From Micromonospora parathelypteridis (GTDB lineage Bacteria; Actinomycetota; Actinomycetes; Mycobacteriales; Micromonosporaceae), in NCBI RefSeq assembly GCF_014201145.1, contig NZ_JACHDP010000001.1, positions 5,208,001-5,272,000 on the forward strand: a stretch of DNA of 64,000 nucleotides. The letters run 5' to 3'. Both the position numbers and the translations under genes were made by a program. This document shows positions 37,516-42,537 of this stretch, piece after piece; the stretch's first letter is position 1, and every line of letters starts with the position of its first letter. The notes below the pieces were generated by a model, which ran no database searches, was not told the DNA's origin, and saw only the letters and a program-made list of their open reading frames with translations.

Positions 37516-38259
37516 TCAGAGCACCTGGGCGAGGAACCGCCGTAGCCGGGGATGCTCGGCCCGTTCGAAGATCCCCTCGGGCGGCCCGGCCTCCAGCACG
37601 ACGCCCCGGTCCATGAAGGCGACGGTGTCGGCGACCTGCCGGGCGAAGCCCATCTCGTGGGTGACCACCACCATGGTCATGCCCGCGGCGGACAGGTCGG
37701 CCATCACCCCGAGCACGCCCTTGACCAGCTCCGGGTCGAGCGCCGAGGTCGCCTCGTCGAAGAGCATCACCTCGGGCCGCAGCGCGAGCGCCCGGGCGAT
37801 CGCGACCCGCTGCTGCTGACCGCCGGAGAGCTGCGCCGGCCGCGCGTCGGCCTTGGCGGCCAACCCCACCAGCTCCAGTTGGGCTCGGGCGATCGCCTCC
37901 GCCTCGTCCTCGCCGAGCTTGCGGAGTCGGCGCAGCGCGAGGGTGACGTTGCGCAGCACGCTCATGTGCGGGAAGAGGTTGAACTGTTGGAAGACCATGC
38001 CCACCCGCTGCCGCAGCGCGTCCGGGTCGTCGTCCAGCACGCTGCGCCCGTCCAGCAGCACGTCGCCGCGGTCCGGCTCGATCAGCCGATTGATGGTGCG
38101 CAGCAGGGTGGACTTGCCCGACCCGGACGGGCCGATCACGCAGGCCGTCGCCCCGCGGGGCACGGTGAGGTCGACACCGCGCAGCACCCGGTTCGGCCCG
38201 AAGGCAAGGTGCACGTCGCGTACGTCGAGGCTGACCGAGGTGGTGGTCGCGGTGGTCAT
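37516..38259 (-). CDS. Amino acid ABC transporter ATP-binding protein
   Basis: ATPase of 247 residues of the polar amino acid family (GlnQ/TcyC-like). Walker [10 protein letters not shown] near 44-52, Q-loop [15 protein letters not shown], signature LSGGQQQR near 145, Walker [16 protein letters not shown], and H-loop [11 protein letters not shown]. The ATG overlaps the permease stop (ATGA), so it is translated in step with it. The operon begins with a SAM riboswitch and a Met/Cys leader peptide, which suggests cystine, cysteine or methionine as cargo rather than glutamine (inference). Confidence 0.93.
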
Positions 38260-39029
38260 CGCCGGTCCCCTTCCGTCGCGGCGTAGGACGCCAGGTCGTC
38301 GTCCTCTTCGGTCGACACGGTGGTCGGTCGGCCGTTGCGCAGCCGCCGGTCGATCCAGTTGACGACGTGCGTCAGCGGGACGGTCAGCACCAGGTAGCAG
38401 AGCCCCGCCAGCAGCAGCGCGGACTCGTTGCCGGTGGTCGCCGCGTAGTCCTGGCCGATCCGGAACAGCTCTCGTTGACTGGCCACCAGGCCGAGGAAGT
38501 AGACCAGGCTGGAGTCCTTGATCAGGGCGATGAGCTGGTTCACCCAGGCCGGCAGCACCCGCCGGATGCCCTGCGGGATGATCACCAGCCGCATCGCGTC
38601 GGCCCAGGAGAAACCGAGAGCACGGGCGCCCTCCAGCTGGGCGGCCTCCACCGACTGGATGCCGGAGCGGAAAATTTCTCCGATGTACGCGGCCGCGATC
38701 AGCGACAACGCCAGGATGCCCAACGGGTAGGGATCCGGCCCCCAGACCTCCATGCCCAGCGGGGCCAGCCCGACGCCGATCAGCAGGATCGTCGCCGCGG
38801 CCGGAAGCCCTCGGAACACGTCGGTGTAGACCCGCGCCGGCCAGCGCAGCCAACGGCTGCGGGAGATACCGGCGACGGCCAGCAACAGGCCCAGCACCGA
38901 GCCGAGCAGGGCGGCGGAGACCGCCAGGATCAGCGTGTTGGGCAACCCGACGGTCAGCATCTCGGGCAGTGCCTCGCGCATCGCGTCCCAGTCGAAGAAG
39001 GTCTCCCACAGGGTGCTCAACGGATCCAT
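38256..39029 (-). CDS. Amino acid ABC transporter permease (HisM/TcyB-like)
   Basis: Membrane subunit of 257 residues. The N-terminal helix and the motif [23 protein letters not shown] match the HEQRA-type permease family; the coupling loop facing the ATPase is [29 protein letters not shown], the EAA motif. An acidic C-terminal tail ([19 protein letters not shown]) is unusual but follows the last helix. Coupled to the ATPase gene by a four-base overlap and 45 bases downstream of the binding-protein gene. Confidence 0.93.
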
Positions 39030-39074
39030 CGGTCGCCTCTCCTACCGCCCTGCTCGCTCGTCACCGGGTACGCC

Positions 39075-39935
39075 TCAGGAAGCGGCCGACGCGGACGCCG
39101 ACGGCGTCACCGTGCCGCTGCCCGGCTTGAAGTCCGCCGGGATCGGCCGGCCGGGGTAGTACTGCGCCTGCAGCCGGCTCCAGGTGCCGTCCGCGATGAC
39201 CTCGTCGAGGCCCTTGTTCAGTGCCTCGCGCAGCTTGTCGCCGCCCTTGGCGACGGCGTACGCGGTCGGTGCCGGGCTGAGCTGCTTGGCCGCAACGGTG
39301 ATCTTGCCGCTGCTGTCGGTGGCCGACTTCTCGCCGATCTCGGCCGGGGCGATCCACGCGTCGGCGGTGCCGGCCTTGAGCTGGTTGATCGCGCCGTTGT
39401 AGTCCGGCACCCGCACCGGGTCGAGCTTCTGGCCGGTGGCGTAGTCGTCCTGGACGGTGCCCTGCACCACCACGACCCGCTTGCCGGCGAGCTGGTCGAA
39501 GCCGGTGATCGGAGAGCCGGCCGGCACGTCCAGGCCGAAGTAGCCGAAGTCGTAGCCGTTGCCGAAGTCGACGGTCTTCTTACGAGCCTCGGTGATGGTG
39601 ATCGAGGAGCTGCCCACATCGAACTTGTGGTTGTTGACCTGGGAGAGCAGGGCGGAGAAGTCGGTGCCGACGAACTCGACCTTGAGGCCGAGCTTGCCGG
39701 CCACGGCGGTCAGCAGGTCGTTGTCGAAGCCGGTGAACTTGCCGTCCTTGAGGTAGACGTTCGGCGGGGCGTCGGTCAGCGTGCCGGCCCGCAGCACGCC
39801 CGGCTGCGCCAGGCCGTAGGGGTTGGCGGTGGCGTCGGACGAGCTGTCGTCGCCGCAGGCGGTGAGCGTGGTGGCGGCCAGGATCGTGGCCGCGCCCAGG
39901 GCGGCGGCGCGGGTCAGGGCAGGAAGAAATCGCAC
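39075..39935 (-). CDS. Amino acid ABC transporter substrate-binding lipoprotein
   Basis: Exported solute-binding protein of 286 residues, the first structural gene of the ABC operon. Lipobox LTAC with Cys27 means lipid anchoring to the outer face of the membrane. The periplasmic-binding-protein family 3 features are there: GVLRAGTLTDAPPNVYLKDGKFTGFDNDLL at the start, FSALLSQVNNHKFDVGSSSITITEARKKTVDF, then the hinge strand KRVVVVQGT. The C-terminal Pro/Ser tail is disordered. The riboswitch upstream suggests sulfur-containing amino acids as ligand. Confidence 0.92.
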   Translation of the reverse strand: MRFLPALTRAAALGAATILAATTLTACGDDSSSDATANPYGLAQPGVLRAGTLTDAPPNVYLKDGKFTGFDNDLLTAVAGKLGLKVEFVGTDFSALLSQVNNHKFDVGSSSITITEARKKTVDFGNGYDFGYFGLDVPAGSPITGFDQLAGKRVVVVQGTVQDDYATGQKLDPVRVPDYNGAINQLKAGTADAWIAPAEIGEKSATDSSGKITVAAKQLSPAPTAYAVAKGGDKLREALNKGLDEVIADGTWSRLQAQYYPGRPIPADFKPGSGTVTPSASASAAS

Positions 39936-40037
39936 GGGTGTCTCCGGAAGGGTCGCGTCTCGGCGCGCACGGACGTGCGCCGCCGACGGTGCGCCCGATG
40001 GGCGTACCGCTGGGGAGGGTTCGGGAAGGGGAGTGCG

Positions 40038-40178
40038 CTAGTGCGTGGTGCCGCGACGACAGGCGGCGCTGCACATTCGCATCATGTCCACGTGCCGTCG
40101 CCGGGTCAGGGCCGGCGAGGGCCAACCGGCGCGGACATCCGCGACGTCGGTCGGTGGGGCGGTGCTGAGGATGCTCAT
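40038..40178 (-). CDS. Putative Met/Cys leader peptide
   Basis: A 46-residue reading frame between the SAM riboswitch and the binding-protein gene, starting with ATG after GGGAGAA. Near its end is LTRRRHVDMMRMCSAACRR, which matches the RRHxDLxRxxSAxC pattern of actinobacterial putative leader peptides found before sulfur-metabolism genes; Met and Cys codons cluster there, as expected for a ribosome-stalling sensor. The peptide itself probably has no separate job. It ends 102 bases before the lipoprotein gene. Confidence 0.7.
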   Translation of the reverse strand: MSILSTAPPTDVADVRAGWPSPALTRRRHVDMMRMCSAACRRGTTH

Positions 40179-40200
40179 GGTTCTCCCGGGTCTGTGCTGA

Positions 40201-40322
40201 CCTGGGTGCCAGGCCACGCTTGCACCGGCGTCGTGCCGGTGCCTGGTCTTCACCCGGGGCACCCCACCGCGGAGGAGGGTTGCCGGCCAGCGAGCCGGGG
40301 CTTCGCGCTGGCACTCATGACC
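40201..40322 (-). promoter_or_regulatory. SAM riboswitch, SAM-IV type
   Basis: Read on the minus strand, the core (40322 down to 40241) opens with GGTCATGAGTG, continues with AGCCCCGGCTCGC, then GGCCGGCAACCCTCC, then GCGGTGGGGTGCCCCGGGTG, and closes with AAGACCAGGC; GGTC and GACC pair as the closing stem. This order matches the SAM-IV (or SAM-I/IV variant) aptamer of actinobacteria. After the core are a hairpin GCACCGGC-N5-GCCGGTGC and CCTGG-N3-CCAGG, likely the expression platform. It should lower expression of the leader-ABC operon when S-adenosylmethionine is plentiful. Confidence 0.88.
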
Positions 40323-40409
40323 TGCGGCGAGGTTAGCAGCACGCCCGGGTGGATCGTCCAGTCGTTATGACCACGCTCACTGTCTGCGAAGGGATGGCCC
40401 GCCCGCAGG

Positions 40410-42350
40410 TCAGCCGGCGTGCACGTGCGGCCGGCGGTGCGGGTCGGGCTCCTGGCGGCGCAAGATCTCTCGGGTCACCGAGGCGATGGCACCCTGTCCG
40501 AACGCCAGGTAGCGCAGGAGGTTGCGAGCCGGTCCGCCCTCGGACCACTCGAAGTAGATGTGGGGGCGGCGACGGCTACGGTCGCGGATCTCCAGCAGCA
40601 GGGCGGCGAGCGCGGTGGGCACTGAGGAACTGGCCAGGCTGAGCACCGGGAAGCGGCCGTCGACCACGCTGCCGCGCACCAGCAACTCGGTCTCGAAGTC
40701 GGACGGGTCGGTGACCTGGACCTCGACGAAGATGACGTCGCTGTCATCGGGGAAGTCGTTGTCCGCCATGGTCTGCGCCAGCTTGGCGCGGTACTCCGCC
40801 GCGTTGCGCGTGTCGGGATCATGGGCGATGAGCCGGATTCGCCGTCCGGCACGTTCGTCGATCATCCGGGCCGCGTCCGCGTCCAGCTCGACATGGTCCA
40901 CGCGCAGCTCGTAGGCCCGCATCAGCCGGGACAGCACCGACACCACGATGAATCCGCCGATGAAACAGGCTGCGATCTTGACACCGTCGGGGCGTTCCAC
41001 CACGTTCGCCAGGGTGGTATAAACGAAGATCACCGCGATGGCTCCGAACGCGACGGTGCGGCCGCGCTGACGCCGCCGCGCCGCCGCGAGCGTCACCGCT
41101 GTCGCCGCCGAAGTGATCAACACCAGGACACCGGTGGCGTACGCGCCGCCCTGCGCGTCCACGCTGGCCTCGAAGAGGACCGTGATCAGAAACGCCACCG
41201 CGGTGAAGACCAGCACCAGCGGCCGGACGGCCCGCGCCCAGGTCGGTGCCATGCCGTAGCGGGGCAAATAGCGGGGTACGAGGTTGAGCAGACCGGCCAT
41301 CGCCGACGCCCCCGCGAACCACAGGATCCCGATGGTGGACAGGTCGTAGACGGTGCCGAACACCTCCCCGAGGTGCTCGTGCGCCAGGTAGGCCAGCGCC
41401 CGGCCGCTCGCCGGTCCGCCCGGCTGGAAATCCTCCGCTGGGATCAGCACGGTGGTCGTCACGCTGCTGGTGATCAGGAAGGCGCTCATGATCACCGCGG
41501 CGGTGGTGAGCAGTCGGCGGGCACCGCGGATCCGGCCCAGCGGTCGAGCCTCGGAGTCCTGCGGGTCACCTCGTACGCTCGGCATGACCGCCACCCCGGT
41601 CTCGAAGCCGGACAGGCCCAACGCCAGTTTCGGGAAGACCAGCAGCGACAGCCCGACCACCATCCAGGGATCGCCGTGGCCGGTGGTCAGCGTGGTGGTC
41701 CAGTCTCCGACCGCGCTCGGGTGCGTCGCCACCCGCCACAGCGCAACGACCATCACCACCGCGTTCAGCCCCAGGTAGACCCCGACCAGGACTACCGCGA
41801 TCCCGATGGCCTCGCCGAATCCCTTGAGGAACACCGCGCCCAGCAGCGTCAGCAGCAGCAGCGTGAGCAGCACCTGGTGCCCCTTGAGCCCGCTCGGCCA
41901 GAACGGGTTCTCGTCGATGTGCGCGGTCGCGTCGGCGGCCGACAGGGTGATGGTGATGATGAAGTCGGTGGCCGCGAAACCGAGCAGCACCAGCACCAGC
42001 AACTTGCCCGGCCAGTAGCTCAACAGGCGTACCAACATCGCGATCGAGCCCTCACCGTGCGGGCTCTCCACCGCCACCCGTCGGTAGACCGGCAGCGCGC
42101 CCAGCAGTGTCACCAGCACCAGCACCAGGGTCGCCACCGGCGACAGCGCCCCGGCGGCCAGCGCCGCGATGCCCGGCTGGTAGCCCAGCGTGGAGAAGTA
42201 GTCGACGCCGGTCAGGCACATCACCTTCCACCACGGGTGGTGCCGGTGCTCCGGCGGACGCCCGTGCGGCCCCGGGTGCTGCACGACCTGCTCGGAGCCA
42301 GCGTCGAGCAACCACCCCCGCAGCCGGCTGGCGCGCCTGTTGACCTCCAT
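40410..42350 (-). CDS. APC superfamily permease with C-terminal soluble domain
   Basis: Membrane transporter of 646 residues. It starts with a soluble stretch, then [29 protein letters not shown], the first APC-type helix of this actinobacterial group, with about 12 helices up to residue 470. The last 170 residues are soluble ([30 protein letters not shown]... [21 protein letters not shown]), resembling the cytosolic tails of KUP-like K+ or amino acid permeases. The cargo is probably an amino acid or K+, not decided. ATG 42350 follows GGGGGA; ATG and GTG codons up to 42383 are possible. Divergent from the CorA gene. Confidence 0.85.
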
Positions 42351-42537
42351 CGGCGCGTCCCCCGTCATCCCGCCCATGGTCACCGTGAGTATCCGCCCGT
42401 CCGGGCGCGCCCGTCCGCCGGTGCTCCGAACTCGCCCGCCGCCCGGTCGGGTTTCGGGCCGGAGACAGGGGGGAAACAGCGCCCCCGGGTTGGCGGGATC
42501 GCGCCGGACCGGACGTCACCGGGGGAGGGGACAGGGC

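Follow-up and report, generated by a model that had tools for sequence, protein, structure and literature searches.

A SAM-IV riboswitch and a cysteine-type leader peptide in tandem: a proposed series sulfur switch before an ABC transporter operon of Micromonospora parathelypteridis

On the minus strand of a 64,000-nucleotide stretch of the Micromonospora parathelypteridis genome (positions 5,208,001 to 5,272,000 of contig NZ_JACHDP010000001.1; hereafter the window, in which all coordinates are counted), an aptamer of the SAM-IV class (SAM, S-adenosylmethionine) is followed by a short open reading frame (ORF) for a 46-residue leader peptide and then by the genes of an ATP-binding cassette (ABC) importer. 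The initial annotation had read this arrangement as two sulfur sensors in a row, SAM being sensed by RNA and methionine or cysteine by ribosome stalling. The anatomy of the locus and its relatives supports the two-sensor idea, since a cysteine-type leader does follow the SAM-IV RNA in series and in a sulfur context, but the two devices do not look independent: the anatomy points to a riboswitch that governs whether the leader is translated, and the second signal appears to be cysteine, not methionine. We thus propose a series sulfur switch in which SAM blocks leader translation, while low SAM combined with slow cysteine decoding at a UGU codon protects the transcript from Rho, a reading to which we give a probability just above one half. 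The new observation behind it is that the last Cys codon of the leader motif is fixed as UGU although UGC dominates elsewhere.

The comparison was built on 116 SAM-IV loci from the window's family and genus, chosen partly by an aptamer length that favours this layout. The succession of aptamer, ribosome-binding site (RBS), leader and substrate-binding protein (SBP) gene was found in 72 of the 116, a proportion that is, given this choice, not a frequency; 69 lie in the window's genus, two (L003 and L011) in a second genus and one (L104) in a third. These 72 tandem loci were picked by a leader-motif pattern ending in Cys (L034 by eye), so that the presence of a leader is built in, while the RBS, the spacing, the SBP gene, the hairpins and the codon choice formed no part of the selection. 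All 72 keep the RBS, the leader and the binding-protein gene.

In the window, the leader runs from an ATG at 40178 to a TAG at 40040-40038 and encodes MSILSTAPPTDVADVRAGWPSPALTRRRHVDMMRMCSAACRRGTTH, with ALTRRRHVDMMRMCSAACRRGTTH as its C-terminal part. The 46-codon frame described in the initial annotation is therefore present, but its end is not MMRMCSAAC, as six more residues follow. Over the tandem loci the leaders measure 28 to 50 residues, and their N-terminal half varies freely whereas the last part is fixed. Among 62 distinct motif DNAs, the mean column entropy over motif positions 0-12 is 0.32, 0.20 and 0.60 bits at codon positions 1, 2 and 3, and the Arg at position 0 is encoded by all four CGN codons; third codon positions are thus the most variable, the mark of coding selection on the leader. 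The R-R, H, D, M and last C of the motif are invariant in this set. Of the two signals first suggested, cysteine stands and methionine is weak: the Met at motif position 6 occurs in 62 of 62, but it is not kept at the level of the leader family, where the same position reads C, L, M, M and G in five other likely members from the window's genome, and the extra M of MRMC occurs in only 8 of 62.

All 145 leaders have UGU as the Cys codon at motif position 13: those of the 72 tandem loci and 73 of 73 other leaders with an HVD-type motif outside them (L117-L119, L121, L125 and L162-L230, L167 being unreadable). The latter (29, of which five come from the window's genome, plus 40 plus 4) are top-scoring family matches that share common ancestry, some being near-identical (e.g. 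L184, L185 and L188), and do not amount to 73 independent events. Everywhere else UGC prevails: the Cys codons at position 9 of the tandem leaders are UGC and UGU in a ratio of 64 to 4, those in the covered parts of the SBP genes 71 to 1, and those in 43 ORFs of the window with a high GC content at third codon positions 144 to 19, while a Cys at position 6 of the other family leaders, where present, is UGC except in L172 and L174. Drift is an unlikely cause of the UGU fixation, because silent substitutions are frequent elsewhere in these genomes of high GC content. The Cys-tRNA anticodon reads UGU by wobble, and the fixation may reflect selection for this decoding, which would keep the ribosome waiting longer as charging drops. 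The distance from the UGU to the leader stop is 1-9 codons.

While codon-based sensing is the explanation that we prefer, the leader could instead be an arrest peptide comparable to TnaC, its nascent chain 1-16 residues upstream of the UGU sensing a sulfur metabolite in the exit tunnel and Cys-tRNA charging being secondary. The invariant residues behind a variable N-terminal half fit such a peptide, and a similar core recurs over the class, but a fixed rare codon for one amino acid favours decoding over the peptide alone, and variants with runs of Cys exist within the family (L162, L163, L165 and L166). We consider this explanation unlikely.

The riboswitch itself is identified with confidence. 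The only gathering-level Rfam match in the window is SAM-IV (RF00634) at 40322-40211 of the minus strand, with 106.8 bits against a gathering score of 38 (E 1.1e-18) over model positions 1-116 of 116 (cmscan), which bears out the assignment first made from its ordered conserved blocks. In SAM-IV, the 3' strand of the pairing named PK-2 lies at the aptamer 3' end and pairs with an internal loop (PMC6890682). Across the tandem loci a loop CCGCG or CCACG faces a strand GCGTGG, GCGCGG or ACGTGG, and one pair varies (G-U in 55, A-U in 14 and G-C in 3 of the 72). Score, full length and PK-2 make this RNA a SAM-IV member, and SAM binding is predicted accordingly from its sequence.

From the aptamer to the leader, the elements follow one another as GCGTGG-CCTGG-loop-CCAGGTCA-loop-GACC-RBS, apart from a few deviations (L104 has CCGGGTC, L094 has GATC and L096 lacks GACC), and this stretch accommodates two mutually exclusive hairpins. 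The anti-sequestor uses the PK-2 3' strand: UGGCCUGG can pair with CCAGGUCA in eight consecutive pairs in 72 of 72 loci, the outermost being U-A in 68, C-G (compensatory) in 3 and U-G in 1. Its mean energy is -13.1 ± 0.5 kcal/mol with the PK-2 strand and -6.1 kcal/mol without it, and it is more stable than dinucleotide shuffles (mean z -3.2, below -2 in 70 of 72). The sequestor buries the leader RBS by pairing CCAGGUC with the GACC arm (GACC in 70 loci, GATC in one, different in L096) and with RBS bases. It, too, is more stable than such shuffles, at a mean z of -2.3 with 44 of the 72 loci below -2. Because the anti-sequestor shares the PK-2 strand, formation of PK-2 would favour the sequestor, making a SAM-OFF switch on the leader. 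In a folding model of the window's own RNA, the two states differ as this switch would predict, the anti-sequestor rising from 0.00 to 0.95, the sequestor helix falling from 1.00 to 0.04 and the open RBS rising from 0.34 to 0.53. The leader starts 143-148 nt from P1 in the 72 loci; pairing of the P1 3' strand with downstream elements was modelled on 71 loci as a candidate switch and discarded, its mean probabilities being 0.00-0.03.

The RNA that follows the leader is rich in C and poor in G. The excess of C over G (C-G) of 0.42 at 39998-40033 is reached by 0.12% of 36-nt windows on both strands of the window; over the 72 loci its mean is 0.33 over 36 nt (minimum 0.00), a value reached by 0.7% of background windows, and it peaks right after the leader stop (0.38 and 0.42 in 24-nt windows at +0 and +6). 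Two GC-rich hairpins stand downstream in most members by eye, and the region round them is more stable than shuffles (z -2.6 in the window; mean z -2.9, below -2 in 60 of the 71 loci folded). This composition fits a Rho-dependent attenuator, for which the stretch is a candidate site. A premature transcript is reported from S. clavuligerus, where SAM-IV lies in the leader of an aminotransferase class V gene (PMC8269248); this fits transcript loss after SAM-IV. An attenuator with an intrinsic terminator was rejected for the window, where 39850-40450 holds no terminator-like structure. Translational coupling of leader and SBP gene is unlikely too: the SBP start lies 55-146 nt past the leader stop and all three frame relations are found. 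RNAalifold on a plain MAFFT alignment of this gap was uninformative owing to alignment gaps.

A working model may be suggested by these elements. Transcription would start just 5' of the aptamer, where a promoter-like pattern is seen. With SAM bound, the PK-2 strand GCGUGG would be held in the aptamer, the anti-sequestor lost and the RBS taken by the sequestor, leaving the leader untranslated. With SAM low, the anti-sequestor would form first during transcription, and a ribosome would translate the leader as far as the conserved tract ending in UGU. Where charged Cys-tRNA is plentiful, it would pass and leave, opening the C-rich RNA past the stop to Rho; where it is short, the ribosome would stall, perhaps aided by the conserved nascent chain, and shield the RNA, so that the transporter genes are transcribed. 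A ribosome waiting at the UGU would sit at the edge of the C-rich stretch, which a terminating ribosome would expose. As judged from the anatomy, high SAM would mean off, low SAM with enough cysteine also off, and low SAM with low cysteine on.

Several results weigh against this model. (i), in equilibrium folding of the 72 loci, mean RBS accessibility was 0.37 in both states, freeing the PK-2 strand made the RBS more accessible in 35 of the 72 loci, 184 shuffled controls gave an accessibility of 0.36 with a mean difference of zero, and two other folding set-ups (72 loci, and 71 loci with L104 omitted) were also null on average. (ii), cryo-electron microscopy of the isolated SAM-IV aptamer revealed no disruption of pairing and no large change on SAM binding, PK-2 included (PMC6890682). 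(iii), one of the 72 loci lacks a C excess after the leader; by eye, L003 has neither downstream hairpin and L036 lacks the first; 5 T within 8 nt occur somewhere in the gap between leader and SBP gene in 8 of 72 loci; and the main termination site of Mbox, the Mycobacterium tuberculosis riboswitch discussed below, lies upstream of its upstream ORF (uORF) (PMC12810186). (iv), the family scores of the leader stay under the curated cut-offs, and the conservation of R-R-H-V-D exceeds what plain codon attenuation needs. As equilibrium folding shows no general switch, the switching step rests on co-transcriptional folding, and the predicted SAM control of the leader RBS is the weakest structural step. 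A broader formulation is offered more tentatively still: actinobacterial SAM-IV would often act on a short upstream ORF, and here a nascent-chain-assisted cysteine sensor with UGU as stall codon would make one transcript into an AND gate for low SAM and low cysteine.

The sulfur context comes from the relatives of the leader. It scores 24.7 bits against NF042936 (Ms4527A family Cys-rich leader, cut-off 45) and 20.4 bits against NF042934 (cis_reg_atten, cut-off 27), and is, on these scores, likely a divergent relative rather than a member. Like them it carries the core R-R-x-V/I-D-x-x-R...C near the end of a short ORF (the loci having been picked by that core). A relaxed family search of the window's genome gave 23 matches at E 10, most by chance; two copies exceed the cut-off, while the window's leader lies below it, as do three others that were chosen by reading for having the same core. 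Behind the five other leaders are genes matching 3-mercaptopyruvate sulfurtransferase, a YeiH-type putative sulfate exporter and a ferredoxin nitrite/sulfite reductase, three assignments that are all under curated cut-offs, and in a fourth case an ORF without NCBIfam match. The window's operon is probably sulfur-linked too. The fifth, L118, a leader over the NF042934 cut-off, precedes an ORF that by reading alone resembles a secreted carboxypeptidase and is not an obvious sulfur gene.

The wide spread of these leaders bears on a further explanation, in which the leader is the sole target of the riboswitch and does no more than gate Rho by its translation, like the Mbox uORF, the Cys codons being incidental and SAM the single input. 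There is a published riboswitch-uORF-Rho precedent (PMC12810186), and SAM-IV elsewhere precedes Cys-free mini-ORFs such as MSKRMR. Against this, the leader resembles a family matched at E 0.001 in 144 of 197 genomes of the class, most of whose members in the listed loci have no SAM-IV nearby, and its UGU is fixed; we consider a single-input gate improbable. That the riboswitch works by transcription termination or directly on the SBP gene, with the leader as an independent second device, would agree with the neutral equilibrium folding and with the S. clavuligerus transcript (PMC8269248), but the missing terminator-like structure, the distance from leader stop to SBP start and the two conserved hairpins at the leader RBS make it very improbable.

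Several known systems resemble the proposed switch in part. The RNA matches other SAM-IV riboswitches in its full aptamer over the gathering score and differs in what follows, as 39 of the 44 other loci of the family and genus have a long first ORF while here a Cys leader and then an ABC importer are found. With NF042934 and NF042936 it shares the core, and three of their copies in this genome precede sulfur-type genes; it differs in its sub-threshold scores and in a strong RBS 143-148 nt into a structured leader, unlike the mycobacterial polycysteine ORFs, which are leaderless (PMC9031893). The M. tuberculosis Mbox-rv1805A and B12 riboswitch uORFs also combine a riboswitch leader with a short upstream ORF (PMC12810186, PMC11260477), and Mbox combines RBS sequestration with Rho (PMC12810186), as proposed here; the available parts of these two papers do not state amino-acid sensing, whereas here both inputs would share one pathway. 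Candidate leader peptides of mycobacterial cys operons (PMC1262725) likewise have Cys codons near the stop and no terminator, and Rho was suggested for them, but they carry runs of Cys codons, and no riboswitch is mentioned in the part available. The uORFC-8-2 before alphaproteobacterial cysS is another attenuator with a Cys-codon uORF, but with a U run consistent with an intrinsic terminator and with UGC dominating (PMC8632094). Neither a SAM-IV RNA paired with a leader peptide nor SAM-IV action on an upstream mini-ORF is mentioned in the open-access papers among the matches listed, although an earlier mention in the founding SAM-IV paper or the mycobacterial polycysteine paper is possible.

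If the model holds, two sensors of the same pathway, SAM by RNA and cysteine by the ribosome, act in series on one transcript, and the mechanism of a leader family matched in 144 of 197 sampled actinobacterial genomes becomes testable via a single codon. The family-wide UGU fixation would then be a codon-level signature of sulfur attenuators, of which we met no earlier description. Through its control region, the operon also gives a clue to what is carried by an importer that would be annotated as 'polar amino acid'.

Table 1. Features of the SAM-IV/leader/transporter locus (window coordinates)
Feature	Position	Strand	Basis or remark
Promoter-like pair TGGACG (40360-40355), 19 nt, TAACCT (40335-40330)	40330..40360	-	ends 7 nt before the aptamer
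SAM-IV aptamer, RF00634	40211..40322	-	cmscan, 106.8 bits, full length
Aptamer P1 strands	40322-40319 + 40248-40245	-	part of RF00634 match
PK-2 3' strand GCGTGG	40214..40219	-	aptamer 3' end, as in PMC6890682; common to anti-sequestor hairpin
Anti-sequestor hairpin TGGCCTGG / CCAGGTCA (40216-40209 with 40205-40198)	40198..40216	-	eight pairs in 72/72
Sequestor hairpin pairing leader RBS bases	40178..40211	-	-15.1 ± 2.2 kcal/mol over 72 loci
Leader RBS GGGAG	40183..40187	-	sequence; purine-rich site precedes all 72 leader starts
Leader ORF, 46 aa, motif RRHVDMMRMCSAAC	40038..40178	-	NF042936/NF042934 below cut-off; relatives in 72 loci
UGU Cys codon, motif position 13, proposed stall codon	40059..40061	-	UGU in 72/72 tandem loci and 73/73 other leaders
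C-rich, G-poor stretch, rut-like (Rho utilization) candidate	39998..40033	-	C-G = 0.42; last 13 bases overlap first hairpin
Two GC-rich hairpins (40010-39986 and 39985-39961)	39961..40010	-	no terminator-type T tail
Substrate-binding lipoprotein, SBP_bac_3	39075..39935	-	PF00497, E 2e-31
ABC permease	38256..39029	-	TIGR01726, 71.4 bits, over cut-off; best-scoring family PRK15100 cystine permease, 116 bits (cut-off 300)
ABC ATPase	37516..38259	-	best NCBIfam match GlnQ, 280 bits (cut-off 379)

The binding protein, permease and ATPase genes announced in the initial annotation are all found behind the leader (Table 1), and its correction of the cargo to a sulfur amino acid holds in part. The regulation of the operon points to sulfur, and what it imports is probably a sulfur compound, which need not be cystine or methionine. 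Among solved structures, the closest relatives of the binding protein go by the name of deoxyfructosyl-amino acid transporter binding protein (E 6e-48), with AncQR (1e-27) and the glutamine and Lys/Arg/Orn binders well behind. In family-3 amino acid binders, we take an Asp to contact the amine and an Arg the carboxylate; in alignments with 5l9o and AncQR the Arg is aligned and the Asp site reads Pro, within a DAW(I)(A/S)P motif in 65 of the 72 SBPs (the other 7 are unmatched by the pattern, perhaps where the stretch ends). By sequence, the SBP thus lacks the Asp that marks a cystine/amino-acid importer of the polar amino acid type (PAAT).

SBP relatives at E 1e-40 occur in 25 of 296 genomes of the class; a single other family of the order (f2) accounts for 20 of these. 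The f2 homologs share 50-56% identity, and in 19 of the 20 genomes (among L140-L160) the open frames that contain them measure 593-859 codons; these are probably kinase-SBP fusions, protein StpK7/MSMEG_1200, a type mentioned in PMC6069109; NF052427, matched in the family search of window proteins, was noted beside them. The same SBP domain may serve signalling in f2, and such probable fusions therefore help little with the cargo. The closest SBP relative outside the window's family (G556, 73% identity) has neither SAM-IV nor this leader in the 600 nt upstream, by pattern and eye.

Around the operon, the same-strand upstream neighbour is a 657-codon membrane-type ORF (40410-42383, minus strand) that reads like an amino acid permease and has no Pfam or NCBIfam match at E 0.1; downstream lies a convergent Na+/H+ antiporter gene. 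A pattern T(T/G)GACN - 15 to 20 nt - TANNNT or CTANCCT occurs within 60 nt upstream of the aptamer in 70 of 72 tandem loci, a count without shuffle control, and a strict sigma-70 scan of the window found no promoter. Elsewhere in the genome, which is a single contig of 7.0 Mb, another SAM-IV stands directly 5' of a SufS-like cysteine desulfurase gene.

SAM-IV was found in 98 of the family's 150 genomes, in 142 of the 151 from the genus and in 114 of the 197 sampled from the class. Of the 44 other family and genus loci, 39 have a long ORF and 2 a short one as the first behind an RBS; in 2 none was found, and one (L101) has no core by pattern; many of the long ORFs are cysteine desulfurase-like by eye and some are not (L002 was checked by family search). 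L027 and L111 have SAM-IV and then mini-ORFs, MVPCQGLMP and MHRSGLMP, and the next long ORF of L027 reads, by reading alone, like O-acetylhomoserine sulfhydrylase. In G331, a genome of another family, the same tandem recurs with a leader ending in RRHVDLVRVASCTCR, a CTCC-TGAA-GGAG hairpin over the leader RBS (by eye) and then an LLM-class oxidoreductase (flavin monooxygenase) gene of the MsnO8 family, over cut-off.

At 30 class-wide SAM-IV loci, the first ORF is short in 14, long in 13 and undetermined in 3, and 11 of the 14 short ORFs encode an R-M step (MSKRMR, MNQRMR, MCIRRMCCR, MTCRMPF), so that SAM-IV acting on an upstream mini-ORF may be common. MSKRMR and MNQRMR belong to genus g66 (probably Streptomyces), and MCIRRMCCR, MSCQRMPRR and MTCRMPF to other families (R-M mini-ORFs at L237, L239, L241, L245, L250, L251, L253 and L254, and at L231, L233 and L234). 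By eye, a C-rich gap and then a longer gene follow them; the genes behind two are a SufS-like cysteine desulfurase (L237) and an O-acetylhomoserine/O-acetylserine sulfhydrylase (L234). Finally, two divergent, back-to-back SAM-IV aptamers are seen at L170 and G331:C16:1956-2291, where the other strand leads to an ORF that reads, by reading alone, like a cysteine desulfurase.

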